Assembly: GCA_002189035.1 (NCBI GenBank) | Contig: NEEC01000017.1 | Coordinates: 2,232,001-2,296,000, forward strand | Direction of reading: 5' to 3' | DNA: 64,000 bases | DNA from: Utricularia gibba | Lineage: Eukaryota > Streptophyta > Magnoliopsida > Lamiales > Lentibulariaceae | Part shown: in pieces, positions 9,794 through 59,800 of the stretch | Layout: the number at the start of each line of letters is the position of its first letter | How positions within the stretch are numbered: the first letter of the stretch is position 1 | Program-made: the position numbers and the translations under genes | Notes under the pieces: generated by a model | Seen by the model: only the letters and a program-made list of their open reading frames with translations | Databases searched by the model: none | What the model was told of the DNA's origin: nothing

Positions 9794-13275
<3,482 letters not shown>

Positions 13276-20081: not shown

Positions 20082-21600
20082 ATGAGAGGTATGGGGATTG
20101 TTGGATGGAGTAATCAGGATTGCGCAGTGGCGGCTGCGGTTTTGGGTTCCAGGGCTTTCGAGTACTTGATGATGTCCAGTTCGATATCTGCTGAATGTGT
20201 TTCATTAATGGCTGTCGGGAACAATGAGAACTTGCACGATAAGCTCTCGGATCTCGTTGAGCCCCCCAATTCAACATCTTGTTGGAATTACGCCATCTTC
20301 TGGCAGCTCTCCAGATCAGGGACGGGAGAGCTTGTTCTCGTGTGGGGGACGGTTGCTGTAGAGAGCCTCGCGTCGATGAGGAATCCGACATGGCCCAGAT
20401 TCTCCGATTCGGAGCAGATGATGAATCGCAGCAGAGGATGAGGAAAGGCGTTCTCCAGAAGATTCATCAGACATTTGGAGGAGTTGATGATGACTGCTAC
20501 GCATTTGGGTTGGATAGAGTTACAGACACTGAGATGTTCTTCCTTGCATCCATGTACTTCTCCTTCCCCACAGGACAAGGGGCCCTGGAAGTTGCTTTCT
20601 GTCTAGAAAACATGTCTGGGTATCGAACGCCTTGTCCTCATCGTCGATGGAGTACTGCTTTCGGTCTGCACTGGTGAAGTCCGCCGGGATTCGAACCATT
20701 GTCTTGATCCCGACTGATGTTGGGGTCGTTGAGCTCGGTTCTGTCACGAGCTTACCTGAAAACATGGAGCTTCTGAAGTTGGTCGGATCCAGCTTCTCTT
20801 CATTTCCGACATTCCTCGGGAGGCAAGGTGTTGTCAAGGCAGTGGAAAACGATGAACACGATCCAACAAAAGGACGACGGTGCGCTCCCAAGATTTTCGG
20901 CCAGAATTTGGTGAAGGAGAAGCTTCTGAACAGGACGCAGAGGAGCAGTGACATGAAACCAGGGGGAGATGAGATTTACAGAGTGGACATCCAACAAAAG
21001 CCAGGATCGATGCAAATTGACTTTTCAAGATCCAGAACATCGAACCCGCAAGAGCTTCCTTCACATCCTGTGGTCGTTTCCTGCAAGAGGGAGGCATCAT
21101 CAGGTGTGTTAGAGGACAGGAGGCCTAAGAAGCGCGGAAGGAAGCCGGCAAATGGAAGAGATGAGCCTCTGAATCACGTGGAGGCTGAGAGGCAGCGGCG
21201 GGAGAAGCTCAACCAGCAGTTCTATGCCCTGAGAGCAGTTGTGCCGAATATTTCCAAAATGGACAAAGCATCGCTGCTGGGAGATGCAATCGCTTACATA
21301 ACCGAGCTTCAGAAGAAGTTGAGTGACCTTGAGCATGAGAAGCAGACCGGCAATGGAGCTGCATCTGCAGGAGTGGTGAGCATTGAGGTAGAAGGTGATG
21401 AGACAAGAGTCAAAGTTATCTCCCCATTGGATGCACACCCAGCATCAAGGCTGATAAATGCCATCCAAACCGCTAACGCAAGCATCCTGGAGGCAAAAAT
21501 GGCAGCTGGAACTGATAAAATGTTCCATACCTTTGTGATGAAGTCGCATGGATCCAGTCACCTGACCAAAGAGAAGCTGCTCGAATCCATGTCTCTGTAG
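20082..21600 (+). CDS. bHLH factor, JAM-type (bHLH3/13/17), two frame breaks
   Basis: JAM-type bHLH proteins are nuclear repressors of jasmonate responses that bind JAZ proteins. The single-exon gene reads as one protein of about 506 residues only across two one-base losses. Frame 1 covers 20082 to about 20343, with the MYC-N region ([23 protein letters not shown]). Frame 2 runs about 20349-20578 ([32 protein letters not shown]). Frame 3 runs about 20583-21600 ([34 protein letters not shown]). The bHLH domain is intact near residues 360-415: [35 protein letters not shown]. An ACT-like C-terminal region ends the protein. The breaks lie at G5 (20344-20348) and G4 (20579-20582), each one G short of the family frame. 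As written only a truncated protein could be made. Closest remembered relative is At1g01260. Start could also be the ATG at 20091. Confidence 0.82.
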
Positions 21601-22291
21601 CCATGGTGATCTTCCATCATCCCCTGTTTTGACTGCTTCTTGGAATAGAGGTTAGTTTCAGCTATAGATTTCATGGGAACAAAGGCTGATGTTTTGGCGA
21701 GAAGGTTCAAGTTCCACTTTTTGATTCATACCATACTTCTGAGTTCATCATCATCTGTAACCTTGATGATCTGAGTAACCTACATTATTTGAGAACTCAG
21801 ATGTGTTCATCATGTGTACAGCACAACAGACTTCATGGGGACAAACCCCTGAACCCCAAAATGCGAAGAAGATGATGTTTTTTTGAGTATCGTGTAAACT
21901 GCCTTAATTTTCTTTAGCCAATCGGGGTAGAGAGTGATGCAGTTATGGAGTAGCAGGCAAAAACCGAGAGCTTTAAAGGTTGGAGCGATGTCTTGCTCAG
22001 GGGATGAACCCAACAAGATCTTTCAGTATTCAGGTGGACAGCTTTATTTCATCTGAACAGGAGAACACAACCACCCACAGTGCTTCACAGGGAACCAAGC
22101 AGTTAGCGCTGTATGAGCGGGAAGAAAAGGGATATCAACAGTACGAAGACGACGACTCAACTACTCCACAGAGGGGACAATGTAAACGACCAACAGGCTG
22201 ACGGACGGACGCAGACAGCAGACAGCAGACAGATGGAATGGATTTGCATACATATACACACATTGTGTATGCAGTTCCATGAGAAATGAGG
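21601..22291. other. convergent 3' spacer between the bHLH gene and PI4K gamma
   Basis: 3' untranslated and spacer DNA. A short run of GACGGACGCAGACAGCAGAC-like repeats lies near 22200-22230. No gene is seen. Confidence 0.4.
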
Positions 22292-24145
22292 TCAGGGAGA
22301 ACCATCGAGACGACGGTCGATGATGCTAGAAACACACTCAAGGAAGGCAGCTTCACTTGATCCAGGGATCACGGAGGCATCTGCTTCTTGTAGGATCTCC
22401 TCAATGATGGAAGGCTTCTTGACTGTTTGTCTGCATATCATATTACCTATGATAAATGGGGTGAGCCCTTTTTCTGCTCCCTTCTTCAGAATCATGGTCG
22501 AGATGCGTAGCACACGAGCGCACTCCTTTGGAAGATCCCAACCATAAAACTTGAGAAGGTCTATATCTTTCTCAGCGTCCAACGATTTTATGTACTCAAG
22601 GGTATCTGAGGTGAAAGGCTGACGGGCTTGAGGCCAGTAAAGCCAGTCAAAAGTGCAGTCTTCGAACTACAAGGAAGAAATATGAATTTCAAAATTCAAA
22701 ACCATAACAACAAGACGCATTTTGAAACTCAAGAGCTTGTGCATATGGTGCAAGAATTTAAATACTAGAAGTTGGGCAGGAGAATGAGAAGTGAAACTTA
22801 CAGTGTATGGCAAGCAATACCCATGATCAATTGGGATAAGCACAATTTGGTCATCTTCACCTTTAGACACTAGTATATTCCCAGCATGCCTATCTGCATT
22901 AGCCATCCTTATATCCAACACGGCAATCTTGTGCACCTCATGAACCGGAAAAGCACTAGGGCCCATATCCTCACAGCTACCTTCATTCTCCATATACATT
23001 TGTAAGGACCCGGTTTTCACATGAACTTCTCTTGGATGATTGAATGCTTTGTGAAGACACTTCACATAAACAGTAGGAGGAACTCCAGAAAAGCCTCTGA
23101 CATCTCTTCGAAAATAACCTTGACCACTTTCAGGATGATCCAACAAATAGACAGCACACTCCCTGATTCCTCCTTCCCCAATTCTTGTCCCCTTCTTCAA
23201 TCCTTCTCCATCCTCTGATATCGGAAGTCCTCTGGGATTATTAATAGCCATTGGCTCCTCATCTATCGGCTTAAAAACAGATAGATATTTAGTTCCAGTT
23301 TCATTCATCATGAAGTATGCACCACCGGTTCCCTCAGTTGACCTAATAGGATTCTTCCCACTTTCCATCCCATAAAGTGTCATGTTAATCATAGAAATTA
23401 TTTCCGGAGGCAATTTGATGTCTGGGTTCACGACCACTGGTTCCAATAACGTTTCTCTAACTGGAAATTTCCCTAAAATCAAATTACACAAACTGGACTC
23501 TGTATCAACATTTGGCCTTTCTACATTCAACAATCTTGTGTCATTCTTCGGCTGTGTGGTTATAGATAACTCGTAGTTTTTCCCAACCGGACCAGCTCTG
23601 ATTTTAGCTGATTTCCTCACAAACAAATGAATCACAGCGTCTTTACAAATTTTGGGGAGGTCATCCACTAATCTTTGTTCCTCAACTGGTTTGCCATCAA
23701 GTAACACCTCATGGTCCTCACCATGTTCATGTTTCCTCCGTGCAACTTGGCGCTTAACATAACCAATATCCTGGCCCCTTTCCACGTGAAAAATGAAATC
23801 TTTCCCACAACAAGTACTAACATGAATTAGCAACAGGTCAGACAGACGAACAACCAAATGCACAACATTCCCATTCCTCACACCGTAGTCACGGACAAGG
23901 GAATTACTCTTCGCCAATTCCCTACCTCCATGCACCAATCGTTGGTTCCTCGTGAAAATACCCTTGCAAGACTGAATACGGAGCTTGACAGAGTCAATAG
24001 AATCCGACTCCAAAACCTGCATTGGAACCATTTTTTCCGGCATAGCTACGTATATGAGAATTCCGCCCGGACTTTGTTCAAGTGATGGGGGTAAGAAGCT
24101 CTCGTCGCGGAGCGGGGAAATCGAAATCAAACCAGCTGACGACAT
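22292..24145 (-). CDS. PI4KG4: Phosphatidylinositol 4-kinase gamma with tandem ubiquitin-like domains
   Basis: Member of the plant UbDK/PI4K gamma group. The family carries a PI3/4-kinase fold, but the better studied members act as protein kinases that phosphorylate proteasome-linked partners. Two exons, 24145-22802 and 22666-22292 (GT-AG, phase 0), give 572 residues. Seen: two ubiquitin-like domains (about 28-100 and 105-180), with VLESDSIDSVKLRIQ in the first and HVERGQDIGYVKRQ in the second. The kinase region follows from about 265, with STEGTGGAYFM, VFKPIDEEPMA, catalytic-loop DIRMANADRHAGNIL, metal-site PIDHGYCLP, then DWLYWPQARQPF and SLDAEKDIDLLKFYGW. The closest relative I recall is At2g46500 (gamma 4). 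The ATG at 24145 begins MSSAGL, as in relatives; an in-frame ATG at 24175 is a less likely start. Confidence 0.9.
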
Positions 24146-25505
24146 ATCGCCTGTGTATCTCAAATCCCGCACCAAAAAAAACTACGCCTTGCAACGCCGT
24201 CACAGCGCGATTACCAAATGTTTTCCCAGAAATCCATTCTGCTAATCTGCATCTACAAAATCATCAACAGATGATACCTGATTGGAGAAAAAAACGCCTC
24301 ACAAACCCAACAAGGATTTGTGATTGGTCGTAGACTCAATCAGGCGCACGGAAACACCTGAAAAACAAAAAAAAATAGCAAACGATCTTCAGTAATACAA
24401 ATTTCCACAGCTCAAGCCCTACGCAGAACCCCTAGAGCTACATCGAGACAATTCCTCACCAGAAAACAGGAACCGGAAAAATCGATCGCCTCCGGAAATA
24501 AATGTGAGGCCTGAGCCGAGGAGAAGGGAGACGAATCAGGGAGATCTTCACGCGGAGAGAGAAATTTCAATTTCGCTTCGTGAAGGAAAACAGGGCAAGA
24601 ATCATGGGGCGGAAACGGTATACGGTGGTTGACCAGCGACTTTCCCAAGGGAAAGGAAACAGCAATGGGCAGGCCAAGGCCCACCTAACGTTCGGGCCCG
24701 AAATACGCGTTTTTTGAGTTTTGAAAACTGACACGTGGGCCACGGTCCACGCGACTCCCGCTGACGTGTCGCGCGTCGCTTCTTCCTTCCTACACCCCAA
24801 CGGTAACCGTCCAACCCACTACTAATAAAAATATTGATTTTACATCATTTTTTTCGTTTGTTTTTTTTTTGTAAAAAAAAATAATCAATTTCTAGACTAA
24901 AATACAAAAATGTAGCTTGTTTTCGTAACACAAGACACCCCTTAAAGTTTGTCGAATTTCTGTTAACATGGTCGATTTATAGTCCAAAACAATTAATTCC
25001 AATTGTTTTTTAAACACCGTTGAAGTGTTCGATCGACAGTAAATGATGGTCTGGAATCTTGCAGTTGAGGGCGTTCATCGGCTAAAGAAAAAAAGAAGGG
25101 ATCAAGAGAGGGGAGGATGTTAACAGTTTTCTCATCAGCGCTTTCAAAAGGTACCGAGGGGAGGGGGGTGAATGAAGTTCAAAGCTCAACTCTAACAGAA
25201 TAAAGATGAAGTTCCTTGTGTATCTCTTGAAGAAGACTTGAGTGGCTGTGTGCAGCAGGCCGGAGAGGCTGGTGGAGGATCTGCAAGTTAAGAGGAGATC
25301 AGCACACAGCAAGAGGGAAAGACAAGATGGGGCTGTGTTCTTACAGGTGCTGGTCTGGCGGAGAATGCAGAGCACACACACACATCAAGCCTTTGAAAGT
25401 CGGTCCCCTGCCAAAGAAATCGATGGGCAAAAACTAGAGTGGGAGGAGCTGTCTGGGGGCATCCACTGAGCTGCTTCCATGAGGATTTGAAGCAAGAAAG
25501 TTGAC
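24146..25505. other. intergenic: PI4K gamma 5' region and REC-like 3' region
   Basis: Holds the PI4K gamma leader and promoter, probably with a leader intron. A CACGTG G-box lies at 24732-24737. The A/T-rich stretch around 24820-24990 is followed by the downstream side of the REC-like gene (25080-25505). Open frames here are not protein-like. Confidence 0.4.
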
Positions 25506-28500
25506 TCATGTAGCAGTGACTGCTGCTTGGGAATCGAAACTTCCAGCTCCTGGAAGTCCTGTTTCTCTTATGACTCTGGGATGAATTACTTTGAATGGTT
25601 GTGAACTGTATGGTCTTCGTAGCAAACTCAGCGGCATCCGCACCAACTGCTTGCGGTTCCGTCTACCTTTCACTAGAATACCAAAGGTTTTTTCGCCTTC
25701 GGTTGTCCACTGCCTTGCAAGATGATCATTGCAACTATGAGCTTCTTCATTTGGACCACCACTGCTGTTCAACAGGTTAATTGGAAAGTTGACACCATCA
25801 ATACTAGAATTATCACACAGACCAGCCTCCCCCAAATGAATGATCGCCTCACCTGAATCTGGAGCTGCATCTTCTTCTTTCTTGGTCTCATCAATAGTGT
25901 CAAGGTCAGCAGGTAAATGAGATGTCACACCTAAGTTCTCTGAGGTTACAGATAATTCCTTTTCATCCAAAACAGGCTGAGGAACTGATTCAACCACTGT
26001 AGGAGATGTGAATTCAACCATGTGACTGCCAGGCCAAATCCCATGGATGTACTCGGGTGCACCATCACATTGCCAGGAAAACTGGCTCTGGGGATGAAAA
26101 TGGTTACCGGCCAGATGAAAGCTGGTAGGGGGCATTGTCTGTGCCTGTGTGTAGGGTGGATACATCAACGGCATATGGATGATATTAGGAGTCAGTGGTG
26201 GCGACGGATAGTGGTGGTGAGGAGGGGAGGTTGGACTGGGTAAAATAGTGGCATGACCTGGATGAAGGCTAACGTTCATTGGCCAAGTGCCAATTGGTGG
26301 AACAGGAACCAGACCAGAAGAAAATGGCATGCTGATGGGCAATGGTGTTACCCGGGGAGAAACAAGTGATGGATTGTATGGAGCTGCTGATGCTGATAAC
26401 TTCTTGCTTGGAGCTTCTTTACAGTAACCAGACAGGTCCTTCATTCCTTCCTCAACCTCCTGAAAGATTGAATTTGATTCATCGCTTGGTTTAGAATCCA
26501 GTGCATCTTCAGTACAAGCAAGACCTTCTGTAGATAGGCCATAGTGTTCCACGTTCTCTGATGAGTCTTTCATTTCATCTGTCTCAGTTGGGTGAGGCAA
26601 AAGCAATGGGGCAACACTGTCAGAGACATCTACCATATCCTCAACATCTGTAACATGAACTGAAACTATCTCTTCCTTCCTATCCAAAGCTTCATTTGCA
26701 ACTGTCACTTCGGCAGGACTTTCATCTTTCATTTCGGAAACATCCTCTTCATCCTTACAACCCATATGCAGATCTTTTTCTAAATCTAGTGATACGAAAA
26801 CAGATTCCTCAGCAACTATGCTCTGCTGTACTTCTTCTAGTTCTCCTTTCTCATCGCTGATCAACATTGGAATGGTACCGGGAGGTGCTAGAGCAACTTC
26901 CTTGTATGAGGGAGATTTACCAAAATTCACTATTGAACTTCTCTTGGAAACTCTCCTGACCTCACTTGGTGGTGCTGATAAAGGCCTTGACTCTACTGCA
27001 CCAGTATTATCTTTCAACCTCTCAGCTCCAGCATCCAAGGTAGATGGAGAAGAAGACTTCACTCTGTAAGCAAGTGTCTTGACTAATTTTTTTCCAAATT
27101 TGGCTCCAGAAGATGTACTCTTTGCCACATAATACTCTGCGGTTCTTCCTGGAGATGATGATCGCTTCCTCAACACATAATACTTTCCACTTTGAAAATT
27201 ACGCTTCAGGACAGTATGATCTTCTTCAGTGACAACATCTTTTCTGTGATGATTCACCGTCTTACCCGCATACTGCCGCCTCTGAGCTTTTCGTCTTCCA
27301 AAAAATCCAGATGATCTTAGTCTTTGAACTGGCTGCCATCCTTCTTCTCCTTCAACATGTTTTCCAACATTCGAAGTAGGAACTGTTTCGGGAACAAGTA
27401 AAGGCTGCTCGGTTTGGACAGGCTTCTCTTCATTGGGCACTCCCGTTTCCTCGGGATGAACTTTAAGTGACGAAGATTCATGACTTTTCGAGGAGTCAGG
27501 ATCAGAAGAAGAATCTTGTTTTTCCTCCACAGCCTCCGTAAGAAGGGGTTCTGAGTCTGAGGCTGCTGGATTTTTCTGAAATAACATTTTTGCCTACAAG
27601 CAAGTAAAAGAAAAAAAAGACACCGTGTTATGAATTCATACATGTGGACACTTCACCGAATGAAAGTACCTTGGCTACAAGATTTCTTCTTTTGGATCCT
27701 GCTGCATCTTTCCCTTTAGCATCTTCACTTGGATTAATGTAGTCCAGCAAATCTGTCACACTGTAAAATAACAATCATAAGAACGTGTGAGTTAGATAAA
27801 TCAGCACTGTTCTGTTAAGTTTGATACTATTTTTAATAGAAAGCAATTTGTGACTATCAAACTAAACTCTAAACCCTAACATTAAAATAAAATACGACAA
27901 TATCATGCAGCATTGGACCAAATGTGTTTTAAACCGGGACATTGAAACAAAGAACATAAGCCACGGTACGAATTCCCTTTCAAACCAAACAGCAAAATTA
28001 GACCCTAATCATGACTGCAACTCTAAATTAAGTCAAACATTTCTGTTAAAACCCGAATAGGGAAGGCAAGTTTGAACTTGAAATTCAATTCAGGACCAAC
28101 CCATTTTCTCCACATTAAACGGAAGAATGTTATTCACCTTAGGTGGCCCTTGCTAGCAATAGATGCATCAGGTTTCCGGGTGCCATTTCGTGCAGCCTCT
28201 TGTTGCTCAAAAGCTTTTGATTCAAAATACTCAAGCCATGCTGCAGCATCCTGCAATACAATTTACACAAGGGTTGGAATTTAAATAACAACATAATGTT
28301 TTATTTTGAGGCTAAAATGTATACTTGTGTGCGAAGGTCATCTGGACCAAGCTTTGATCTAAGTATTTGTAAAGTTGTTTGTTCATGCTGAACACTCAAC
28401 GGGAATGCCTCCATCAACGAAAGGGCAATTGCAATGGCATGATAACTTGCTGCCGTCTGGAAAACATCAAATGCATTAGAAGTTACGACAAATCTGAATG

Positions 28501-31500: not shown

Positions 31501-33700
31501 AAAGAAAATAAATCCATCGGATTAGAGCACAAACCATCTGATCGAATCAATGTACACTTCTTCCGCAATACTTACATGGGCAGCAGTATTTTCATCTGCG
31601 GTAATACCCTTAAGCAAGTTTCTCTCACCCAATTTCTTAGTCTCCAATCCGATTGCTAACTGTCCATCAATCTTGGTATCAACTTTGAGACTAGCATTTG
31701 GAGCATCCTTGATGATAGAAACGTCCAGGTCCCCAACTTTCTCGGAGTAGATTATGTGACCATTAGGAATGGAGTGAGCCAAGTCCGGATTACCCATTAC
31801 ATGTCTCACAGCTGAGACAGCTCTGAAAATGGCAGCATCTACGAGTAAACTATGGAGAAGAAAAGCCTTGCGATCTCGAATTTGTCTCTCTTCAGCTGTT
31901 TTGCATGGCATCGAGGCCACGAACATAAGTTCATTTGCATAAGGCAGCACATCGCATTTCCCATCCCTGGCTGGACTTCCTCCATTGCCACCCCAGTTTC
32001 CATCCTCTGTCGGCAGAGGAGGAAATGTCGAGGGTGCATGTGCAGCGGTGGGTGGGATAAGCCAGGTATTTGCTCTGTAACCGAAGGGGAGGTTCCCAAA
32101 CTGCATTGAAATATGGTTACAAGATCATAACCACCTTCTAAAAATCCAAAAGGACGTGGATGAAAAAAAAAATGCAACAAGCTAATGAGATACAAACCTA
32201 CCTTATTTCTCTCCGAGAATGCTTTCATAAGCTCATCATAAGCCTGAAATGGAAAAATATTCTGATCACGAAAACAAAATGAAACAAAAAAAAAGGATTA
32301 ACAACGACAATGAAGTATTATGCTAACATTATCAAAGGGTCTGCTCAGTTGTCTCAATAGATCAACCAGATTGTGACAGAGAACTTGCTGTTTTCCACTA
32401 CAGTAGAAGCCTTTTCTTGAAGCTTCTACCAACACCACTTTTCCATTACACAATTTCACCTGCAGAAAGGCACAGCATATCACATATAGAACAATGAACT
32501 CAAGGTTATCCAGTTCATATCACAGGCTTCGGGTTTCTCACTTCGAGACTGAAAAGATGATCAGCACCACATTCTCCATCGCCGGTTTTCTTCGTTGCCC
32601 TCCTTATAACTGGCATTCAAACACAATTTACTGAGGATTTAGTTCCGAATCCGTCAGAATCGCTTCCAACAAGTGATCAGTAGTTAGAGTGGCTGCATTA
32701 CATTGAAGAGGCGGAGTGAGATGAGATAACGAGAAAAACTCGTAAAAACATCCGAGCTTCGGCGAGGTGTTCTCCATTTCTCCTTCACCATCGCCTCCCG
32801 AACCTTCCTTTCTTCCAGACGCCAGTTCCGAAGCCGGCGACGGCGGCGGTGAGGAATTATCTTTGCTGCTCTTCGCTCTCGGCGACCTTCCAGACTTCTT
32901 GCTACTTTTGCCATCCTGCGAACCGTTACCATCCTTGAGCACCGACGGTCCAAACGACGTGGTGCAGGCGACGATATCCAACAACCTCCTAACATGCGCT
33001 GCCGCGCTCTCCTCGTCGTAGTCCTCTGCGTTGCAATTACCCCTCGTTAGCAAGGGCAAAATAGGGTTTTCGTAGCACACCAGTCGTTAACTCACCTTCA
33101 ACGAGGGTCAGCGTACAGGGCTTGAGTGCGGTAACGTCCACCGTGTCCTTCAACCGTGGGCCCCGCACCTGTTCCAACCCCAGCAACGGATAATACATCC
33201 AAAATAATAATAATAAAAATCCCTCAGTTAAACTAAAATCCCCCTAATAAAACATATTTAATATTCATTAAAAATAAACAAATGTACGGTAATCAACCTC
33301 GTGGGATAGTGAGAAACTGGTGATGCTACACGTCAATGTGTTCACCCCAGCAATCTCCGGATGTCCAGAATCCGGTCCGTCGATATCCCCTGAAACGAAA
33401 CCGAATTCCACCATCACCATATGCAAAATCGAACCGTACGGAAAGGATTCCCGGTTCGGCCGTCGAACCAGGGCACCCACCTTCAACACGACATGAGTTT
33501 CGTCAGGGAGATTCACTTTGACATCCATCAGAACGGGAAGAGCTGCGAGGTGCGAGCATCGCACAAGGCCAAACACAGTCACAAGAAGAATCTTCAACCA
33601 ACGAATGAACGAAATGGAATGGAGTGGACGGACACGCACCTTTATCCTCTTTCTTCTTCTTCTCCCCCTTGCTCTTGCCGCGCCCATTCTTCGGAGCCAT
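25506..33700 (-). CDS. REC1: REC/TSS-family CLU protein (REC1-like)
   Basis: REDUCED CHLOROPLAST COVERAGE proteins are cytosolic/nuclear homologues of CLU/FRIENDLY that set chloroplast compartment size. Twenty-three exons, about 1858 residues: 33700-33640, 33542-33481, 33389-33298, 33168-33096, 33025-32702, 32609-32542, 32459-32328, 32243-32202, 32100-31576, 31497-31340, 31270-30754, 30445-30383, 30306-30208, 30088-29771, 29658-29566, 29470-29369, 29276-29172, 28960-28827, 28728-28545, 28456-28325, 28250-28138, 27760-27670, 27593-25506. Seen: Lys-rich start [21 protein letters not shown] region; CLU core (about 285-560) with [39 protein letters not shown]; TPRs at about 905-1100 ([20 protein letters not shown]). 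A 695-residue last exon has [14 protein letters not shown] and a Pro/His-rich tract. Exon 3 is 92 bases where phase needs 93: one base missing in the C4 run 33345-33348. Other junctions agree. Confidence 0.9.
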
Positions 33701-34652
33701 CTATCCGCCTCTCCTTCTTTCAACTGCTCCGGTCACTCAAGGGCAGCAGGAGGGCAATACGAGAGTCACGGGTGGCGGTGACTACTGCGGCATATAGAAT
33801 GCGATTGAAGTCGATCAGCGAATGGAACAGAGCGCTGCGGAATGAATCGTCGTCAATTTCGATCGGCGTGTGGAAGCTGTGAGCGTGAAGACGGTGGAGT
33901 TGGGAATGAGGGAGGAGTAGAAACAGAGGAGTTCGAATTGAAGAGACAAGATGAGATTTTGTGAGCCGAGTGCGATAAGGAAGGAAGGGCTGAGATTTAG
34001 TCTCCGCCTCCTGCACTGCACCACCTCTCTCTCCCTCCTCTTCCTCCTGCTCTAATTAATTAATTATTTTATTTTATTATCTTGTTCCATTTCAACAGAT
34101 TTTTCTCAGACTGTAAAAACAAAGTGTTAATGAACAGTATCTATTTATTCTAGATCTATGTTTGGCATATTTTATTAAAAATTTTTTTTGAAAATTAAAC
34201 TAGAATGGAGATTTTATATTTTCTTTAAAAATACAAAATATTTCCACATTTTTTAATTTTTTGAATTGAAAATAATTATATTTTAATAATAGAATTGTTT
34301 CTGAAAAAGTAAAAATAAATTAAATAAATTGATTTTTGTTACAATAAACAGAAGCATAAAATCGGATAAAATATATGAAAGTAAATGAATGTGAAGGAAT
34401 TGGGCCACGTCATCACCGCCCCCGATCTCATTTTCTAATCCAGCGGATGGCTGTGGTCTGTTTTCCTCCGATTGTATTGAAAATTCTATGTACTGAAATA
34501 GACAAGGATAGAACGCTTGCTTTTTAAGGTAAAAACCCAGACCCTGCTCAAGGGTATACCTTCTTGTTCGTAGCATTCTACATATGTGAACAGATCCCAA
34601 AGTATCAGTGGGACAGGAAGCTGAGATAACAAAAACAGTAGCAACGGCGACC
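33701..34652. other. REC-like 5' region and SDE2 3' spacer
   Basis: REC-like leader and promoter (33701 to about 34030, with short pyrimidine-rich tracts), then AT-rich spacer (34040-34400) and the SDE2 3' flank. No coding exon is recognised. Confidence 0.4.
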
Positions 34653-36355
34653 TCATTTCTTGGCAAACAGCTTCTTTGGAAGCTTCTCCAGGGGTGTGGT
34701 TTTCAGGAGAAAGAGCCTGGCCGCACGTTCTTGCAGGGTGCCACCGCACTTCAAACCCCGGCTCATAAGTTCTGACTTCAAACGCTCTAACCCAAGAACC
34801 TACATTGAAGATTGGCATGATGTGTAACAGACAAACCCACCATTGAAATTCAGTAATTGATATGGGAATGCTAAGTATGGAGAGGAAAATCAAGGCACAT
34901 ACCTCTAACTCTAGAGCTGAATTGTATTCATTCCAGTTCAAGGGTTGGGCAGATCTTCAGGCTTTTCGATAACATGAGATGGATCTTTGTGACCTGCATC
35001 AGGTATCACCAAGCTAGTACACGATTCAGCAGAGGAAGGGATTCCGCTTTTGCCCATTGAAGGTTGGGAATCCTGGGCCATTTCTGGAACAACTTCACTA
35101 CGGTCTTGGGCGAGCTGGTTTACGAGAGGAGTATCAACACAAGCCACATCACCGGCACCATCTTTGCTGCCAGAGGCTGCGGGGTTGTCTGAAACAATGT
35201 CTTCTACGGGTGTGCTGCCGCCGGAAACTTGACCAAGAGATTCATCATCGATTTTTCCACCAGTAACTGAATCCGAATCTTTGCTGGAATCAGAATGACT
35301 GCCGTTGTCTATTACAACTGACTTATCGTGTTCCTCCTCTTGCTGATCAATTTCATCCCCATCCGAGTCTTCACTGTCGCTATCATCCACCTTTCTCTTC
35401 CCAAACCTTTGACAAAAAGAATAACAGATGAATTAGAAACTACAACGAAGAATTCCTGCTAGGAATGTAGAGAACCTTAGGCAGGAAATGAAAAAATCAC
35501 ATCTTCATTCAAAATGACGAACAAAACCAAATTTTTAAAGATCAAGCAAAAAAGGATGCATGTCAACACAATGAATTTCAAAGGGGTTCCGAGAGAGTAC
35601 CAGATCTTCAGTCTCTTTGATGCAGATCCATTTTCCCCGCCCTCATCCTTTCTCTTCAAGCTTGATAACCCTTTTACAGACTGCTGAATCGCCTTTTCGA
35701 CCTTCTCGATACATAATTCCGAGTCCTCCCTATACTTTGCGACATACTTCTCAGCACTATCTGCTCCGGCAGTCTTTCCACTTTTCGAAACCTCTTTCAA
35801 CTTCTTTCGCAAAAAGTCATCAGCCATCTTCTCCAACTTTCTTTCCTCGGCCGCGGCCCTCCACTCTTCCAACTTCTTTTCAGCATTCACATGCCTTAGC
35901 CTCCGCCCACTCATATCCCGACAAGCATCAAAATTGTTGGTCTTCTTCTGCCCAGCTTTCGTCGCAGCACCTCTGAGAAGTGATCCAAACCCCCCTTTCC
36001 CTCCCCTAAGCCTGAGCGATAAATTCACAACAATAGGGAAATTTCCTGAAATATCGCCTTCAGCGATGGGAAAACTACATTGCACACGATTCTTCTCTCG
36101 GGCCAACTGGGAATCGCAATAAGCACCACTATTCTCAGGTTTCGTGTCAAGAATCAGAACTTGATCGCCGTGGAGAACCCTCGAGTTGTTAATTAGGAGC
36201 AACTGCTCACCTGCGGCTATGGAGGTAAGGTTTTGGATGTGGCGTTTTAGGTCAGCGACGGAGATTGTGGGAACGTCGAAATTTAACAATCTGTGCTTCC
36301 CATCGAGCAATTTCACGAGGACCTGACGGATTCTCGAGTCGGAAGATTCCATCAT
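34653..36355 (-). CDS. SDE2: SDE2 homologue, ubiquitin-fold splicing/genome-maintenance factor (one frame break)
   Basis: SDE2 is a nuclear protein. In yeast and humans its N-terminal ubiquitin fold is cleaved after a Gly-Gly, and the rest acts in splicing and replication stress. Exons 36355-35601, 35406-34903 and 34799-34653 would give about 468 residues. Seen: ubiquitin fold near 10-118, the processing motif [14 protein letters not shown] at 116-128, [17 protein letters not shown], a coiled Lys/Glu-rich helix, a nuclear-signal-like [14 protein letters not shown], an acidic Ser/Asp middle, and a C-terminal SAP-like domain ([24 protein letters not shown]) ending LPKKLFAKK. Exon 2 is one base short: the frame meets TGA at 34938-34940, while the conserved continuation [13 protein letters not shown] is in the next frame. 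The loss is probably in the C3 run at 34942-34944. At4g01000 is the relative I recall. Confidence 0.85.
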
Positions 36356-36666
36356 CAGGGACTGAGCGAAGCAATCAAAGCTATTCTCAACCGTCGAACC
36401 ACGACCCTGCGATCTGAGTTTCCAAAAGGGACGACGTTGTTTTGAATTTGGGGATTTTTTTTTTATTCAGTGAACGTCAATATGGGCTGGGCCTGAGAGA
36501 ATACGAGGCTTATTTGGGCCGGGTCGGGTTAGGTTTTATTATATTTAATTGGGCAATCTGGGAGATTCTCTCTCTCTCGCTCTCGCTCTCTCTCTCATAG
36601 CTTCACAAATTTCCAAGCCAAACAGTTGAAGTGAAGATTTTTTATGAACCAAGAGAGCAATCTGGG
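36356..36666. promoter_or_regulatory. bidirectional promoter between SDE2 and ATG6
   Basis: Only 311 bp separate the two divergent start codons. TGGGCT/TGGGCC site-II motifs occur at 36483, 36488 and 36515. A CT-rich tract (36567-36597) lies in the probable ATG6 leader. Such short divergent spacers with site-II elements are typical of constitutively expressed plant gene pairs. Confidence 0.55.
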
Positions 36667-36670
36667 ATGA
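36644..36670 (+). other. 8-codon uORF overlapping the ATG6 start codon
   Basis: An ATG at 36644 opens an 8-codon frame whose TGA overlaps the ATG6 ATG as ATGA (36667-36670). If it is in the mRNA, translation of ATG6 would depend on leaky scanning or reinitiation at the overlap. Confidence 0.5.
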
Positions 36671-39574
36671 AGAAGAACGCGAGCGGGAATAATATTGCAG
36701 ATAAGGGTCGGATCCTGCCAGAAGATCCGAATCTTCCTCGGTTCCTATGCCAAAACTGCCGGCAAAGTCTTTGCGTCGTCGGTGTTGAATCTTACGCCGG
36801 TATGTGTTTTCCTTCAAGATCAGTCATTTTTTGTCTTCTTAAGGAGACTTGATAGTTACGCCATAGAAATTGTAATGGTGACGTAGGAAAAAAATGTGAT
36901 TCTCTTTTTGCTCTCGTGATTTCGTGGTGTGTAGTCCATATAAGTTGGCTCAAGCCATAAGCCCATTTAGTGATCAAGTGTTAGAATGTTGGTTGTTCAC
37001 CTGAATCCAATAAAAAATTTAGCATTGCTGTTTTTGCGTTCTTATGTTGGTGATATGGTACTGCATGCAGGGATGCTAGGTTCTTCCGTCCTTGGAACTC
37101 TAGTGTTGTAGGCTCAACACGAATGGAAAATTCATTTGTCGTGTTGCCGAAACAAAGACCTCAGGTTCATGGAGCATCTTCTCGTCCCCCTAGTGGACCC
37201 CTGAATCCTGAAGCTACACGGACTAGGAAGGCAATAGATGAGTCGTTTGTTGTGTTACCACCACCAGCCGCCTCCGTGTATAAATGTGAACCTGTGGCTG
37301 ATGGAGGAGGTACCAGTCAGTCTTCCTCTGAGGATGGATCTAGCAGTCCTCTTCAACCGCAAAATCCAGGATTCCACACAACCATAACAGTCCTAAACAG
37401 AGCCTTCGAGATTGCTTCATCACAAACACAGGCATAACCTACCTACAGAACAGCAAGTCTGCATTTTTCCCCATGGGAAGCGTGAATGTTAATGTGTCAT
37501 GTTATGTCTAATCCTTTGCAGGTTGAACAACCATTATGCCTTGAGTGCATGCGAATACTATCTGATAAACTTGATAAGGAGGTAGAAGATGTTACCAGGG
37601 ACATAAAAGCATATGAGGCATGTCTTCAACGCATGGGAGAGGAATCAAATAATGTTCTTAGTGAAGCTGAATTTTTGAAGGAGAAATTGAAGGTTATTAG
37701 TTTACATGTTTGCTTAGAACTCCCATGAGTATAGTTTAATGTTGGGCCTACTTGTCATTTCTTCTGACCTGTCCTGATGGGGATTAAAAATTGTCAAATG
37801 AGATACTGGTCTCCATTTCCTCTACAAGTTGAATTCCTATTTTGGATCTTCATTTCCCCTTGCATTCACACTGTTTACAAGTCTGTATTTAATCTTCTCC
37901 TTGGCCTACAGTTTTCTTTTTTTTTTTTTATCTTTTGGAATGCCCAATGATCTCAGGGTTATTTTTTTTGGCATATCTGTGTCCATGAAGATAGAAGAAG
38001 AAGAAAGAAAGCTTGAAGCTGTCATTGCGGAAACAGAAAAGCAGTTTGCTGAAGTGAATGCTGAACTCAAGGAGCTGGAGCTGAAATCCAGTCGCTTCAA
38101 AGAATTAGAGGAACGGTAATTTCACAATTCTCTTGGTACCCACCTTAATGTTTTATCTTTTCATTCATTATAGCTTGCTTATTTTAACGGTTTGCTGTAC
38201 TGCTATTTGTCTAAAATTTAAACGTTTTCAGGTATTGGCTTGAGTTCAATAATTTTCAGTATCAGCTGATCTCGCATCAGGTTTTGTCCTTCGTCCCATT
38301 TGCATTAAGCAACCGGTCGTTCTTTTTTGCATCTATGTTATCATGTAAAAAACCACTAGCATTTTATCCTGCATGGCTTACAATTCAAGCTCAATAGGAA
38401 GAACGTGATGCAATTCTTGCCAAGATTGAAGTCTCACAAGCTCATCTGGATTTATTGAAACGCACAAATGTTTTAAATGATGCGTTCCCTATTTGGCACG
38501 ATGGTGAGTTCGGTACTATCAATAACTTCCGCCTTGGAAGACTTCCTAAAGTTCAGGTACTGAAAAAGATATCTTTGAACATCAGACTATTATGTGTTCA
38601 AGATTTCTGTTTCAGCGTTTGAGTATTCTCAGGTTGAATGGGATGAGATAAACGCTGCCTGGGGACAATCCTGTCTTCTCCTTCACACAATGGCTCAGTA
38701 TTTCAGGCCAAAGTTTCCGTATCCTTCTTATAAGTATTTGTATGATTTTGTTGTTTCTTATCACTCGATTTATTTCGAGCCGTTCCTTAGTTGTTGCCTC
38801 CAGATATCGCATCAAAATTCTTCCAATGGGAAGTTACCCTCGGATAATTGACACTAACAACAATACATATGAGCTGTAAGTTCTGCATCATATTTATTAT
38901 TTTTGTGCATTTCCCAAGTAGAAAACCATGTGATCCAACGTTGAAATAAAATCATATAAATCCCGTTGTCCATACTGTCTGTGGTTTTCGTTGTACAAAG
39001 AATCATAAATGCTGACATCTCTACTGCAGCAGGTTTGGTCCTGTAAATGTATTCTGGAGCACACGGTATGACAAAGCAATGACTCTGTTCCTAGCCTGCT
39101 TGAAGGATTTTGCCGAGTTTGCGCACTCGAAAGACAAGGAAAACAACATTCCTCCTGAGAAATACTTCAAGCTTCCATACAAGTTAGTTTTGATCTTCCC
39201 ATGACCTGTGGGCAATATTTGTTTCTTATCTCCTGACTCACCCGTTCAAGCCGCTGTGCACACTAACGAGCTGGTTCAATTTAATGAACCAAAGGTTTCA
39301 TAGATTCACTGATTTAGGAGTGAAGAAAGTCAGTTTACTTAACTATTGTTTGTTTGAATCCCTTTGCAGAATTGACAACGACAAAGTGGAAAATTACTCC
39401 ATCACCCAAAGTTTCAACAAACCGGAGAATTGGACGAAGGCTCTCAAGTACATGCTCTGCAATCTCAAATGGGCGCTCTACTGGTTTGTAGGGAACACCA
39501 ACTTCCAGCCACTCTCAGCTTCTGTTTCCCCACATTCAGAAGGGACAAGTTCAGGTTCCATGTCCAGTAAATAA
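36667..39574 (+). CDS. ATG6: Beclin-1/ATG6/VPS30 homologue (one frame break)
   Basis: Subunit of the class III phosphatidylinositol 3-kinase complex, needed for autophagosome nucleation, vacuolar sorting and pollen germination. Ten exons: 36667-36799, 37071-37431, 37522-37692, 37991-38115, 38232-38280, 38398-38556, 38633-38718, 38804-38875, 39033-39182 and 39370-39574; about 503 residues. Seen: zinc-like pair LCQNC, the BH3-region stretch [33 protein letters not shown], a coiled coil (about 180-270), and the BARA domain ([73 protein letters not shown]). Exon 2 is one base short. It enters as GMLGSSVLG and must change frame near 37097-37101 to reach SSVVGSTRM; unchanged, it stops at TAG 37109. 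Intron 2 begins with GC. The upstream intronic read-through CFPSRS also resembles family sequence, so alternative 5' splicing is possible. Confidence 0.9.
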
Positions 39575-40255: not shown

Positions 40256-41833
40256 TCAGGATTTGGCTTCATCAGATGGTGGGGATTCCGCCGGAACAGG
40301 ATCAGAATCGACGAAAAACTCCTCGACTGAAATAAAAACCAGAACACATAAGAACCCAATAGGTAAAAAGTGAGTAAATTCCCTGTCCAGGTCTTACCTA
40401 TACCATCCTGTTCAGGAGAGTCAAGGAGGATGTCCGAATCAGAAGGCAAAAAGGGTGAACCAGGATAGTTTCCCAGAGCCCCTAAATCTGCAGAATCAGA
40501 ATGCTTTGAAGAGAGCGAAGCTAGAAAAAAATTGCATCAGAGCTAAACAACAACTTAACCTCCCAAATCGGCTGACAAGTCTGAGAGGCTGAAATTCCAT
40601 GGTATCTGAGACAGGGATCTTAGCGATTCTCTTGAATGTCCTATCCCATTATCAGATGTGAAAGCTGAGTCCAGTACAGAAGTATCAACTCCCATGCCTG
40701 AAATTTCTGAAGTGCTAAAGGGAAAGGGAGCGCTGGATGCAACCGATGTGGGACTAACAGGCATCGATGACATTGCATGGTTCGGAGGCACAACCGGAGA
40801 TACATCACTCGTGGAAGCATCCATCATCGCCCTGAAACCAAATGAGAACTTGCTCTCAGAAAAAAAAAAAAGGGTAGATCAAGATCAGGTATTAACCAAA
40901 CAATGCCTCACTCGTTTCCAGGATTTATTCGCATTGGTTGGAAATTTCCCGGAGCAGGAACTCCGTTGACTACGTGACATCCAGCTGAGTAGGCCATGGG
41001 ATCAATGTGAGGTTGCCCTGGAACAGCAACTGGAGGATGGTGCATGATGGGGTATCCCATTGGTAAATTATTGGCTGCACTGCAAAGAACCGGAGTTGAA
41101 GAATGTAAAAGGAGAACACAAGAAAGTAAACAAGACTAGGAAGTAGAGCCTACCAGCAATGGGATGCTGAAGTCCATTCTGCATTGGGGCTAAAGGAACT
41201 TTCGGGAGGGGCACTGAGTACTTCATCATCTGACACTGGTGCTCAAGTAGCTGGTTAAATAGGATGATTTGCTTCTTCAGCTTAAGCCGTATGTAGTACT
41301 CCCGGAAAAAATCAGCATTTTCTTCTTCTAGTTTCTGCCACACTAGCAAGGAAAGCATGGAATCAAGGAAACACATATGATCTCAAGCTGGTTTTTTTTA
41401 CTACAAACTAGAATACCTAAAGTTGTGAATCCAGGATCTATCCTGGCACGATTTAGTAAAGTCATTACAACCTCATCTCGGTTCATATATAACTGCAAAC
41501 ACCGTTCAATCAAATTCTGGACCTGCAACATATTTCAGGGAAATGAATTTATGGGGCAACGATGACGAAACATCTTAACATCAGGCAATGAAAAATATCA
41601 TATTCATACAAGTTCAATGTCCTCTCTTGACACTTTTCTGCTGTCATTGCTCGAGATCGAGCCTGCATCTGGTGCAGGGTTTGTATTCTTTAGATCAGCT
41701 TTAGAATCATTAGTGACAACAGTTGGCTTTACATCCTGAGAGCTTTGAGAATCCTGCAGAAGTCCAGCATTTAGAAGGAACCCCATTTCGAGTCTAGAAA
41801 GCAACCAGCACAACTAACCTGCGACTTCTTCAT
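40256..41833 (-). CDS. conserved plant protein of unknown function
   Basis: Eight exons give 349 residues: 41833-41819, 41753-41610, 41522-41417, 41342-41154, 41074-40912, 40831-40560, 40487-40398 and 40326-40256. All are GT-AG and all phases agree. I do not recognise a named family. Visible parts: a Ser/Asp-rich N-terminus; a helical core with QNLIERCLQLYMNRDEVV, LLNRARIDPGFTTLVWQKL and EENADFFREYYIRLKLKKQI; a Pro/Met-rich linker (NNLPMGYP, GQPHIDPM); a Ser-rich section with SGMGVDTSVLDSAFTSD; the motif QIPWNFSLSDLSADL; and an acidic end with SDSDILLDSPEQDG and EEFFVDSD. The pattern resembles a transcription-associated adaptor, with a helical domain plus acidic, hydrophobic activation-like segments, but that is inference. 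I recall close homologues in many angiosperms. The intron before exon 5 ends in a tandem acceptor (GCAGTGCAG); only the inner one keeps frame. Confidence 0.8.
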
Positions 41834-44800: not shown

Positions 44801-44878
44801 AACCAGTTGAAACTCGCTGCTATTTGATAAATTTACTCCAGAGTTGGAGATAACAGAGATCAGACAGCCGAAGGGAAG
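41834..44878. other. 3-kb divergent intergenic region
   Basis: Contains the 5' leader (likely with introns) of the unnamed gene on the left and that of the small membrane protein on the right. A very AT-rich core lies at about 43560-43900. From about 43980 the sequence becomes GT-rich on the + strand, consistent with a leader and leader introns of the 44.9-kb gene. No coding exon is recognised. Confidence 0.4.
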
Positions 44879-50932: not shown

Positions 50933-51228
50933 ACATGGCCGAATCCAAATGCATGCTTCATCTTTCTCAATCAAAATGTGAGACAATCTGATGTACAAGA
51001 GGGCTCTGCTGTTCTTACCAGTGCAACGTTTTCTTCTCATGTCCAAAGAAAATCTTCATGACTTTGGGGGTATCCCATGTTTTAAGTAAATACTGATGAA
51101 ATGCAGGAATTTATCAGTTGAATATCAGGTAGAAGAACAAAATCCAACTCTCATAACCTAAGCATGAAATCCCCACAACGTTTCTCATCCACCATCTACT
51201 TCCTGCGTTTTGATCCACTGAGCAGTAG

Positions 51229-51909: not shown

Positions 51910-52550
51910 GGGCTTACCTTCCTCCGGAACCACCCGCGCCGCGCCCGAGAACTACCATCGCATTCCCAAAGCGCAAAAGGATCCGGGCCCCATTGGGCCT
52001 ACCCGCTATTTACAGAGATCCGGCCCAACCCAAACGGACCGGATAACCGGATCCATGTTGCGCACGACTTTTCAAAGCATCGGTAAATCAGTCACTATCC
52101 CGAGTGGTCCGTGGGCCCACCTCATATCATGTAGTCATTAAAGTTCTCATGTGGGCCCACTGTTAGAACGGCCCATAAGTTTTAACAAAGCCTTGTGATG
52201 CTTGTCTAATGTAAGCATTCATTATTGTTTTGTATCTTTATATAATATTATTCATTTTGAATATTTAAATCTTATAATTTCAAGTTCTTTTTATAAAATT
52301 AAAGAAATTACTATATTTAAGTGTATTCTTTTTTTTTGTCCATAAGTAATATGGAATATCATGGTATATTTGACCTTCAAACTACACTTATGAAATTAAA
52401 ATATGACGTGTACGGAAAAAGAGAAAAATACTAAAAAATCCCATTTTTTTTGTTAATAATAATTGAATTTATGTCGATGGAGAAAATATGAGAATCTAAA
52501 GAATAAAAAGAGTCGTGGACAGTAGAAGAGTACATTCTGGAGAGGACGCA
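51910..52550. other. VOC gene upstream region and HWS 3' spacer
   Basis: Three TGGGCC elements near 51988, 52107 and 52152 (two inside a GTGGGCCCAC palindrome), then AT-rich spacer to the HWS stop. No coding exon is recognised. Confidence 0.4.
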
Positions 52551-53771: not shown

Positions 53772-55383
53772 GATCAGCAGTCTTCAAAACACAGGAAACA
53801 ATGCTACAATCAGATCTGTATTCACCACAAGATTTCAAAGCATAATCCAATCACAACAAATGCACCGTTTTTGTATGCATTTTTTTTACTTTTACGGGTA
53901 GGCAGCTGCTGCATCAAGCATTGAAACTTACTGCTTTTGCAGCATAAGCAGTAAGTAAATAAGAGTCACATTGTGAACGCATTGGGATTAGAAGCAGATC
54001 TCTATAGCATGAATCGCATTGAAAACATGTTCAGTGGGAAAAGGCTACTCCTGAAACAATAAATGTGCTGAATCGAGGAAATAATCACACTTCACCAATA
54101 TAAAACAAAAGGGAATCAGAATGCAGCTCCTGAACCAGAAGACAATGTGAAAACAATAGGATAACATCAGAACGGCCCCATTTCTTTGAAAGCATGGTGT
54201 GGAAGCATCTAGTAAAGGCAGAAAAGATGCATACAGACGAACAAAGAAAGTCATGGGGTGGAGGCAACATTTCAACTAATGTATGAACCAACAACCGTCC
54301 AAGTCCTAGGGAACACTTCCACAGAAGAAACATGGAATCTAGAGTACTTGGATGCCATTCATTTGTGAGTTCAACCACATCAAGAGCAAAAAAAAAAAAG
54401 GATAGCGAAGTGAGAGTAAGTTGTCGAGGATTCAGATCTCAGAAACAAGCTTTAAAATCCTCCATAAAAAAACAGGAAAAAATGGAACCGGGACGGACAT
54501 CAAACAATGGGTACTCCCAGAAGCTGAAAAAAAACTTAAGATTTGCAAATGAATTGCCAAAACACGGCATGGCATATGATAATAACAACAAAGGGTGCAT
54601 TTTTAACACTACCCAGGATGAAAAAACAACATTCATTGCAAAAGGCAATCGTAAAGGGCCAAATCATCAACCGAATAAGGAGTAGAGGAAGCATACGAGT
54701 TGGGTTTTCTGGCACTCATCCAATACTTATTTATACTGTCACCACCGATGTTCCCAGATACAAATACAGTAGTTCTCAGTTTCCTCCCCCCTTAACTCTC
54801 AAATGACGCAGGCTGAGCCCAAGGAAGGTGAAGAAAACAGAGAACCCAGGAAAGCCTAAAGACGGACAAGAGAAATTTCCCGTCAGAAATGTGGTGGTAT
54901 TCGAGAAACAAAATTGATGGGTTTATATGGAAATAAAAATGAGGGAAAGAAACAAAGAGCAGACAGACGGCAACACAGGACACGATGTTTTCTATTTCTC
55001 TACTCCCACATTTTTTTTCACTTTTTCATTTCTTCTGCTTATTCATTTTTGTTCCTGGACACTGGACAGAGATGGAAAAGGGAGACCACTAATCCTGTCT
55101 TCCTCATCCTTTCTCCCCAATCCATTCCATTGTCTGGAAGATGGGACCAGCGGTTTCGATCATACATGATGACTCTCCCTCACCCTTTAGATTACTTTCT
55201 GCTTCATCCCGCTTACCCAGTTTATTCCCATATCCATCTCTAATTTACAAAAATATATTATATTTTTTATGACATAGAAAAAATATAAATATATGTTATT
55301 TATTTTCTGGCTCTTACAAAACCTAGTCCCAATTCAGGGCCTGGCCTAGCTGTCGGCGATTCACAGTACTGGGTTGGCAGAAT

Positions 55384-55456
55384 TGGGCCTCATTGGGCTG
55401 ACCCTACATGATGGGCTGGCACATGGGCCCCATACACTGAACACGTGAAGTGGGCC
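55384..55456. promoter_or_regulatory. site-II (TGGGCC/T) cluster with G-box
   Basis: TGGGCC occurs at 55384, 55424 and 55451, TGGGCT at 55394 and 55412, and CACGTG at 55442-55447, all within 75 bp. Site-II motifs bind TCP factors in plant promoters. The cluster could serve HWS (leftward) or the glycosyltransferase (rightward). Confidence 0.5.
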
Positions 55457-55737
55457 CTACCTACTGGACGCGTGTCTATCTCCATCCTCCACGCGTGGAC
55501 TGCACAATCTTTAGTTTATTCAATTTTCAAATTGGAATGGGTAAAAATAAATATTCATTATATATTTCTTAAATAATATAATGATGTAAGCAAATCTTTT
55601 TTAAAATATAATTTTCATTTTTTATGTTTCTTTATAACTCATTAAATATTAATTATCATCAAATTTATATCAAAAAATGAAAATGAAGAGAGGTGAAATA
55701 AGGATTTAGGAGTAGGAATTATAAAATCAATGTCTTA

Positions 55738-55930
55738 AGGTCTGTTTTGTATCGCTTAAAAAAAAATGATTCTAGAAGTGCTTCAACATTTTTTTAGGGT
55801 TTAGCTTCAACATTTTTTTTAAGCAAAGATACCCCGACTTCTAAAAAAATAGAAGCACTTCATTATTTCAGTTTTATGTGAAATAGAATCAATATGTGTT
55901 TTGTCTGAAAATCATTTTAAAAATATTTAA
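55738..55930. mobile_element. possible MITE-like inverted-repeat element
   Basis: The inverted pair GAAGTGCTTC (55775-55784) and GAAGCACTTC (55852-55861) flanks a core. Inside the core a 16-bp direct repeat GCTTCAACATTTTTTT occurs twice (55780 and 55804). The 'gaagtgcttct' style is common in short non-autonomous plant elements. I could not define terminal repeats or a target-site duplication. Confidence 0.3.
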
Positions 55931-56880
55931 TTTAAAGTAAAATAAAAAATAAACAGAACTTTAATCTCGCTGGAATATATTAATTACCAATGAGAGAGAA
56001 AATGTAACACAAATAGAGGAGTAAGCTTAATTTTGTATGAAATTTTTTTTCCGAAAAAAAAACGTAATATTTGGAATATTAAAATATCATATAAAACAAA
56101 CACGGATCGACAAGGCATCGCATGTGACGCATTGGGTGGGATTCATCAAAGGAATTTACTTTTATATGAATTATTTCTATTTTATTGTAAGAATTTGTGG
56201 TGCTTTTACAAAAATAAAAAAAGGAATTAATTCTGGGCATCGAAATAAATGCTGATTTTGTAAATGCATTTATGAGTAATTAAAAGTAATTACTGGTCTT
56301 ATGGATTGGTTTTATTTGAGAAGAGAATGAATTGGCGTGGTGAATCATTGATGATGAAGATAATGGTGTGCGTGCATTAGGGGGGGAAGGAAGGTAGATG
56401 AACTTCTAAGAAAGGCACATTGGGCTGGCCACGTGATACCATTGCTGCTGGAACACTGCGCAGATGAATCGTCGCCTTTGGGTGGGGGAGACGGGTTTTG
56501 AGCTTGGGTGTTTTGGGTAAAGCGTTTGACTGTGAACCCAATTTTGACTTGTGGGTTGAGGTAAAACCCAGGTTTTTCGCTCCAACTCGGGGCTGTGTTT
56601 CCCGGGGTGTGTGTTGAGTGAAGGACGGGTTCGCTGATGGTGTACCATTCACGCGGTCCAGCTTCAAGAAGCTGCTTCTTTGGTTGTGGAGAAGTGGATT
56701 GGGAGTGATGTGTGAAACCCAATCCGGGAGAGGAACCGGCATTTGTGTTTGTAGTAACCGGGAGTTGGAGGAGCAGTGATTCGTCTTTGAAGCCTGTTTG
56801 GGGCATTGGTGCAGCTGCGTTTCTGGGTGCAATCTTGCAATGGATCGTCATTAAGATTGTGATTATCTGGGCTTTTTGTT

Positions 56881-56892
56881 ATGGAAGTGTAG
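56881..56892 (+). other. 3-codon uORF abutting the glycosyltransferase start
   Basis: ATGGAAGTGTAG ends exactly at the base before the main ATG (56893). If transcribed, ribosomes starting here terminate at the main start codon. The uORF is seen directly; its effect is inference. Confidence 0.5.
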
Positions 56893-59800
56893 ATGGGTTG
56901 TCTTGAAAACGGCGTTCCGGTGAACAGGGAGTCCCGATTCGGGCGTTCTTCGTCTATCGGGGGTTGTGAACAGTCCTGGGGCAGTTCTCCAGTTGCAGTT
57001 TCCGGTCCAAAGAACAGATCCAGAAGTGTGAATAGGATTTGTGCAAGGATTCGAGCTGTGCACCTCGCTTGCCTTTTCATTGCTGTATTTGTCTTCCTTT
57101 TTCTGCTTCAGGGGTACTTCTTGCCGGTTGTTGGGCCGGAGGAACCGCGAAAATCCAGCAGAGTTGCTCATTTCTTCTACAAGCGCGGTGGCGGCGGAAA
57201 TTTTCCGGATTTTCCGTTCTTGGATGACTTGGATTTCGGCGACGATGCAGATTTGGAACTTTTGAACACTTTGATCAAGTTTCAGAAGGAACCTAGAGAA
57301 ACTAACGACAGCTATAATGTCCGTAGATATGGATACGTTAAACCCAAGCTTGCGTTGGTAATTTCTATTTTGTTTGTCTCTTGGCTTCAATGTGTCTGGC
57401 ATTGCTTGCCATGTTTCCTGCAACTGGGTTGTTTATTGGGTTTTGAGTGATCATCTGCAATCATTAGTGTTTGCATGATTTATAACCGCTGGAAGGTTTT
57501 CTTTTGAATGCCCTTGCAGGTCTTTGCAGACTTGACAGTAGATCCACATCATATTCATATGTTCACAGTGGCTAAAGCGATACGAGATGTGGGTTATGAA
57601 ATTGAGGTGGTTCATTCTTACTTTATGCTTCATCAAGATATTGAGTCTGTACCATGGTTAATTCTTTGTTCATTTCAGGCTTTCTCTCTACAAGATGGCA
57701 CAGTGTCTGCAGTATGGAAAAAGTTCGGATATCCGGTGAACGTGATTACTGCAGATGAGAACATGAAGTTTTCCATAGACTGGCTAAAGTATGAACTACA
57801 CTAGTTAATGTGGGATGTTAATATTACCAATAAACTGCTAAAGTTTTCAATAGAATGAACGATGAACTGATATTTTACAGATACAACAGCAGCTTGTTTG
57901 ATCTCTAAAATGTTGTGTGATTGCAGCTATAATGGGATCTTAGTGAGCTCTTTGAAAGCTGCGGATGCCTTGTACAGGTCAGCAAGTTGGATTTATTGCA
58001 GTCACGAATCATTCTCTTCCATTCAAGCATATCTTTTAGCTTTGTTATAGAAATGAAGATTTTACTTGTGCAGTCTTATGCAGGAACCTTTTCGGGAAAT
58101 ACCTCTTATATGGACCATCCATGAAGAAGTGCTAGCCCGGAGATTGAGAGATTATGCTTCAAGAGGAGAAGTGGAGCTGATCGAGAGCTGGAAAAGAGTC
58201 TTCAGAAGAGCCACTGCTGTTGTCTTCCCCAACCAAATTCTTCCAGTAATTGCATACTTTCTTCCTCACAATAGCCACTCCTCATTCAAATTACATATCA
58301 TAGTCTTCCTCATTAATGCAACTTCAAGCTTTGTCAACTGTGCTTCATAATTTTGCTTCTTAAATTGCTCAGGTGGCCTACTCAACATGTGATCCTGCAA
58401 ACTTTTGTGTGATCCCTGGCTTCCCTATGGATGACATGGAAGTTAATGAGCACCTGGCTGATGGAAAGGATAATGTAAAAAATGAGTTTGTCATAGTGGT
58501 AGTTGGAAGCCGTTTGGTTTATAAAGCTCAGTGGCTGGAACATGCCCTTGTCTTACAAGCTCTGTATCCAGTTTTTAGAGGTTTCATTTCCACAAATTCT
58601 CATCTAAAAATCATTATCCTGATTGGAGCCTCAACACCAAACTACAGCAGTGCTTTTGAGGTAGAAATACAAGATGGCAATTTTCAGCTGAAATTTGACT
58701 CCTCTTCATTAGATGCTGAGGTTTTCTCTGCTTGGGTTTTATGCCACAGACAATAGCAAAAAACTTGAATTACCCCAATGGTACTGTGGAGTATGTTACT
58801 GATGATGCGGCTGGAGAGGATGCCCTTCAAGTTGCTGATCTTGTGATATACGGCTCCTTCCGTGAAGAGCCTGCATTTCCAGTCATTTTGCAAAAAGCCA
58901 TGCTTTTGGGGAAACCTGTAGTTGCCCCAGATATGGCGATGATTCGTAACTATGTGCGTTTCACCATTATCTTTTCCTGTCCAAAAGCATTATATGGCCC
59001 ATGAATATATTTGGGATTCAGCAAATGTCTGTGATCACACATCTATTCTCACCATGTTATTTATTGGTAATCCTTATATGAGCTGTTAAACCTTAGCCAT
59101 TGACTGTGATGACACTTTTTTTCAGGTTTCTGACTGGATGAATGGTTTCCTCTTTTCAAAGGACAAAGTTTCAGTTCTTACCGACATACTCTTTCAACTG
59201 ATTGACAATGGAACACTCTCAGTTTTAGCTCAGAGTGTTGCATTAAGAGGAAAGGCCACATCCAGAAACTTCATGGTCACAGAATGTATAGAAGGTTATG
59301 CTTCACTTTTGGAAAATGTTCTCAAGCTTCCATCTGAAGTTGCGGCTTCCAAGCCTGCTAAAGAGATTCCCAAAGAGTTAAAAACTGAATGGGGATGGCG
59401 CCATTTTGAAGATATTCATGAAAATTCTTCAACCAGATATGATACAACAGATGATTTTTTGAATAAGTTTGAGAAGCTATTAAGCTCTTCAAGCAAGGAT
59501 AGCAGTGTCAACCTTTCTGCAACAGATGATAATTCATTTCTTTATACCATATGGAGGACCAAAAGTTAGCTGACATGGCTTTCATGCGGAAAAAACGAGA
59601 AGATGATGAGGTAGTTGAAAGTTGGTGCTCTCTTTCTTTTTGTGTTTTCGTTTTTTTAATTGTTGCTATTTATTTTGATGTAGTTGAAGGATCGAACAAA
59701 TCAGCCTCAGGGAACATGGGATGAAATATACAGAAATGTTCGGAGACCTGATCGTGTTTTACATGAGAGGGATGATGGTGAGCTCGAGAGAACTGCACAA

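Follow-up and report, generated by a model that had tools for sequence, protein, structure and literature searches.

Six single-base frame breaks in five conserved genes of a Utricularia gibba contig very probably reflect consensus errors at homopolymers

The stretch of DNA that was analyzed, referred to here as the window, comprises 64,000 nucleotides (contig C328:2232001–2296000) of an assembly of 100 Mb in 516 contigs. Translation, with each place read in all frames, revealed six frame breaks in the given sequence, which affect a bHLH gene (two sites), a REC/CLU-like gene, an SDE2-like gene, ATG6 and a GT4-like gene, at a density of about one break per 4 kb over roughly 26 kb of coding sequence (the coding total is our own estimate). 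By this frame reading, the disabling changes in the window were one-base losses only (6/6 sites, five genes). No break was found in the conserved window genes PI4K gamma, CURT1-like, F-box, ORMDL and a 695-aa gene, and the other conserved genes read contain no break of the insertion type; as reference proteins covered part of these genes, a break could have been missed. An ECA-type Ca-ATPase gene (9794–13305, reverse strand) provided an intact control; its frame switches were considered as additional breaks and rejected, as the split frames correspond to GT-AG introns.

The bHLH gene is of the MYC type (20091–21600, forward strand) and contains the Pfam domains bHLH-MYC_N and HLH. Its first break is located in a G5 run at 20344–20348, inside the bHLH-MYC_N domain (WG^DGCCREPR, with the caret marking the break), and its second in a G4 run at 20579–20582 (GQG^PG), both on the forward strand and each net one base short. 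Three frames share the bHLH-MYC_N domain between them, covering the adjoining profile positions 1–39, 34–116 and 108–181. In an alignment with the duplicate on contig C505, the duplicate is a single open frame across both sites, whereas the window copy is net −1 at each. Downstream of both breaks, comparison with this duplicate gave a pN of 0.24 and a pS of 0.65, with a third-position excess. The loss of coding constraint that should follow a disabling change in a pseudogene was therefore not found for the bHLH gene, although a very recent loss is still compatible with these values.

The duplicate lies in a collinear block at about 1176945–1244630 of C505, which also contains a REC duplicate. 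Window 15667–53772 is collinear with C505:1176945–1244630 at about 68–90% identity through ORMDL, bHLH, the 695-aa gene, REC, a gene at 40260–41738 and F-box, whereas SDE2, ATG6 and PI4K are found on the window side only. Judged from sequence, the arrangement resembles a whole-genome duplicate from which genes have since been lost. The REC/CLU-like break is in exon 2, at a G4 run on the coding strand (33345–33348, reverse strand; RRLLG^VNTLTC); the C505 exon is one frame, and the window exon is net −1 relative to it at the shared site. A dN/dS estimate for REC was discarded because non-coding frames were mixed in. As bHLH and REC are in frame on C505 at all three comparable sites, the direction of the change is confirmed as a loss on the window side. 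The C505 duplicate of the 40260–41738 gene is net −1 relative to the window copy at about 1213720–1213726 (L050), indicating that losses of this type affect the C505 side too. Since bHLH and REC each have a second copy whose frame is open at the sites concerned, loss could be tolerable, which, together with the double breakage of bHLH, favors real pseudogenes, in which redundant copies decay by true mutations after whole-genome duplication. However, a mixture of disabling changes, including stops, gains and larger deletions, is expected of pseudogenes, whereas the five genes carry one-base losses only.

In the SDE2-like gene, the frame reading requires one base around 34941–34950 (reverse strand; LPNP^LNWNEY), where C3 is one option and the exact base is not resolvable. 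The GT4-like gene breaks at a GG at 59553–59554 (forward strand; IW^EDQKLADM), and its remaining exons are in frame. In addition to frame continuity, these two calls draw on the sequences conserved in the respective families. In the C505 collinear block, no duplicate of the GT4-like gene and no match to SDE2 or ATG6 was found. A profile search for SDE2 (PF13019) returned no match anywhere and likewise none for the controls, and is hence uninformative. The ATG6 break zone extends over about 37072–37107 (forward strand), and an acceptor (TTGTAG followed by GCTCA, with the AG at 37110–37111) joins the first exon in frame. The ATG6 break is probably a one-base loss, but is the weakest of the six sites because this acceptor restores the frame after exon 1. 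ATG6 has a single match in the whole assembly, which may itself be incomplete; this argues against the decay of a redundant copy. On the basis of existing knowledge of the two genes, loss of a sole copy of ATG6 or SDE2 would be improbable.

The in-frame ATG6 acceptor, 40 bases downstream, also raises the question of whether gene structure, in the form of introns or alternative acceptors, imitates the frame breaks, as introns indeed do in the ECA gene and in two GRAS genes (L066 and L068) of the assembly. At the other five sites, however, one frame overlaps or directly adjoins the next inside conserved sequence, so that no space is left for an intron, and this explanation is extremely unlikely. 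Programmed frameshifting or RNA editing that restores the product was considered solely because the flanking frames are conserved. Nothing was found in its favor, and since such a mechanism would need to operate in numerous unrelated genes whose duplicates read straight through, its likelihood is practically negligible.

The original prediction of six one-base losses without gains in five conserved genes was thus borne out on translation, with ATG6 as the weaker case; the accompanying statement that each frame needs exactly one extra base applies clearly to five of the six sites (both in bHLH, and those in REC/CLU, SDE2 and GT4-like) and is ambiguous for ATG6, where the downstream acceptor could bypass the break. 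The sites were also described as lying mostly in G/C runs. Three of the six adjoin a G/C run of at least four, compared with 0.53 expected from random positions, which agrees with this description; however, the runs are short, and the losses at the GT4 GG and the SDE2 CCC fall outside long runs. Furthermore, the window retains G/C runs as long as 7 and A/T runs as long as 16, so that any under-calling is partial. G/C run lengths (up to 7) are not sharply truncated in the spectra, which therefore give no proof of under-calling and no refutation of it.

A wider sample was obtained from the GRAS genes of the same assembly. These genes are mostly intronless, which makes a frame break easy to spot. 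Of the GRAS genes that are not fragments, about 41 by our tally, 14 have frame breaks, and the broken genes are spread over at least ten contigs. Shifts were scored by aligning the genes, with frameshifts allowed, to a profile built from 15 intact GRAS proteins of the same genome, and L066, L068 and L075, in which introns explain or may explain the breaks, were left out of the counts. Outside these three genes, 19 of the 20 shift events were negative and one was positive. Nine of the 19 negative shifts were at G/C runs of at least four, compared with 1.8 expected from random positions in the same genes, whereas one was at an A/T run of at least four, compared with 2.4 expected. In five paralogues (on C244, C375, C142, C2 and C1), the break falls at the same codons of the conserved motif ALAxRPGGPPxxRITG; these codons are G/C-rich and form runs. 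The nominal p for clustering at this motif is 0.0005, without correction for its post hoc choice. Independent pseudogenes are not expected to pick one site, and the shared spot therefore speaks against them, as does the restriction of all shifts except one to losses. Three GRAS copies (L076, L077 and L069) may nevertheless be true pseudogenes.

An internal replicate is provided by small contigs that are nearly identical to parts of large ones, namely C333 relative to C328 (L037/L038, L043/L044 and L093/L094) and C249 relative to C244 (L015/L016), and that appear to be redundant contigs left in the assembly. C333 is a 39-kb contig that duplicates a portion of C328, on which the window lies. The comparison took in the parts where both have the same sequence (C333:24924–27500 and 33566–37318, about 6.3 kb); the region upstream of C333:24924, a duplicated gene region with many substitutions, was omitted. 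Over this length there were no substitutions and five one-base differences, all in homopolymers and four of them shorter in C333. This combination makes it unlikely that C333 and C328 represent two true alleles. As the length differences include A/T runs, the error is not exclusive to G/C. Between C249 and C244, three mismatches and ten gapped positions occur over 2.8 kb, with the small contig usually the shorter of the two, and these differences could include allelic change. The sizes of five other contigs, C1 (8500000), C2 (6192500), C505 (3452500), C409 (2492500) and C507 (642500), are multiples of 2,500, as if scaffolding or the correction of misjoins had divided them at fixed intervals.

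Losses thus exceed gains, are concentrated at homopolymers and are spread across the assembly, and copies differ in run length without substitutions, as expected of consensus error. A G/C run of at least four is lacking at half of the GRAS events and at three of the six window sites, which counts against an error tied to such runs. On balance, the six breaks are very probably assembly errors in the consensus caused by under-calling of homopolymers, chiefly G/C runs, and the five genes are most likely intact in the living plant. The preference of the original prediction for a systematic under-call over five pseudogenes is thereby upheld, with support from the GRAS breaks and from the run-length-only differences between C333 and C328; real pseudogenes are very unlikely as the explanation. 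There is a slim chance that one or two breaks, most likely those in the bHLH duplicate with its two breaks, are genuine null mutations of recent origin among assembly errors. The reads, probably long, error-prone and not fully polished with accurate reads, would have under-counted short homopolymers, above all G/C, and the consensus would thereby have dropped single bases and left conserved frames that look broken. The sequences themselves show the breaks, their direction, their recurrence across the genome and the homopolymer-only differences between redundant contigs, whereas the type of sequencing and the true base count at each site are inferred.

Long-read assemblies are known to contain erroneous deletions that follow homopolymers, mostly those of four to five identical bases, and that make genes look like pseudogenes (Kastor, PMC12007338), and systematic homopolymer indels survive polishing (Homopolish, PMC8011154). 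The breaks described here resemble these cases in being single-base, deletion-dominated and homopolymer-linked, with shifted frames in genes that should be intact and inflated pseudogene counts. However, the Kastor example is richer in A/T, whereas the excess here is at G/C runs, and both studies used reads or references and small genomes, whereas the present reading is derived from assembled sequence alone. Duplicate-gene pseudogenes that follow whole-genome duplication are similar in that two of the five genes have a C505 duplicate, but differ in the shared direction and context of the breaks, their recurrence at one motif across GRAS paralogues and the retained downstream coding constraint.

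As consensus errors, the six breaks would not be a biological feature, and the locus is ordinary as biology. They are, rather, a quality warning for users of annotation built on this assembly, in which about one in three of the GRAS genes surveyed, including some DELLA-like ones, would be labeled as truncated or pseudogenic. Polishing should precede any claim, based on this assembly, that genes were lost, duplicates retained or sequences under selection. The GRAS RPGGPP codons are a convenient marker, since failure of the same codons in several paralogues of one genome signals consensus error without reads.

The window also contains two dispersed repeats. The one at 14671–15200 is about 510 bp long, with at least 30 copies at 68–82% identity, and none of four copies checked contained an ORF of 130 aa. 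The other, at 55812–55925, is short, spanning about 100 bp, and its copies, of which there are more than 20, show 72–87% identity.
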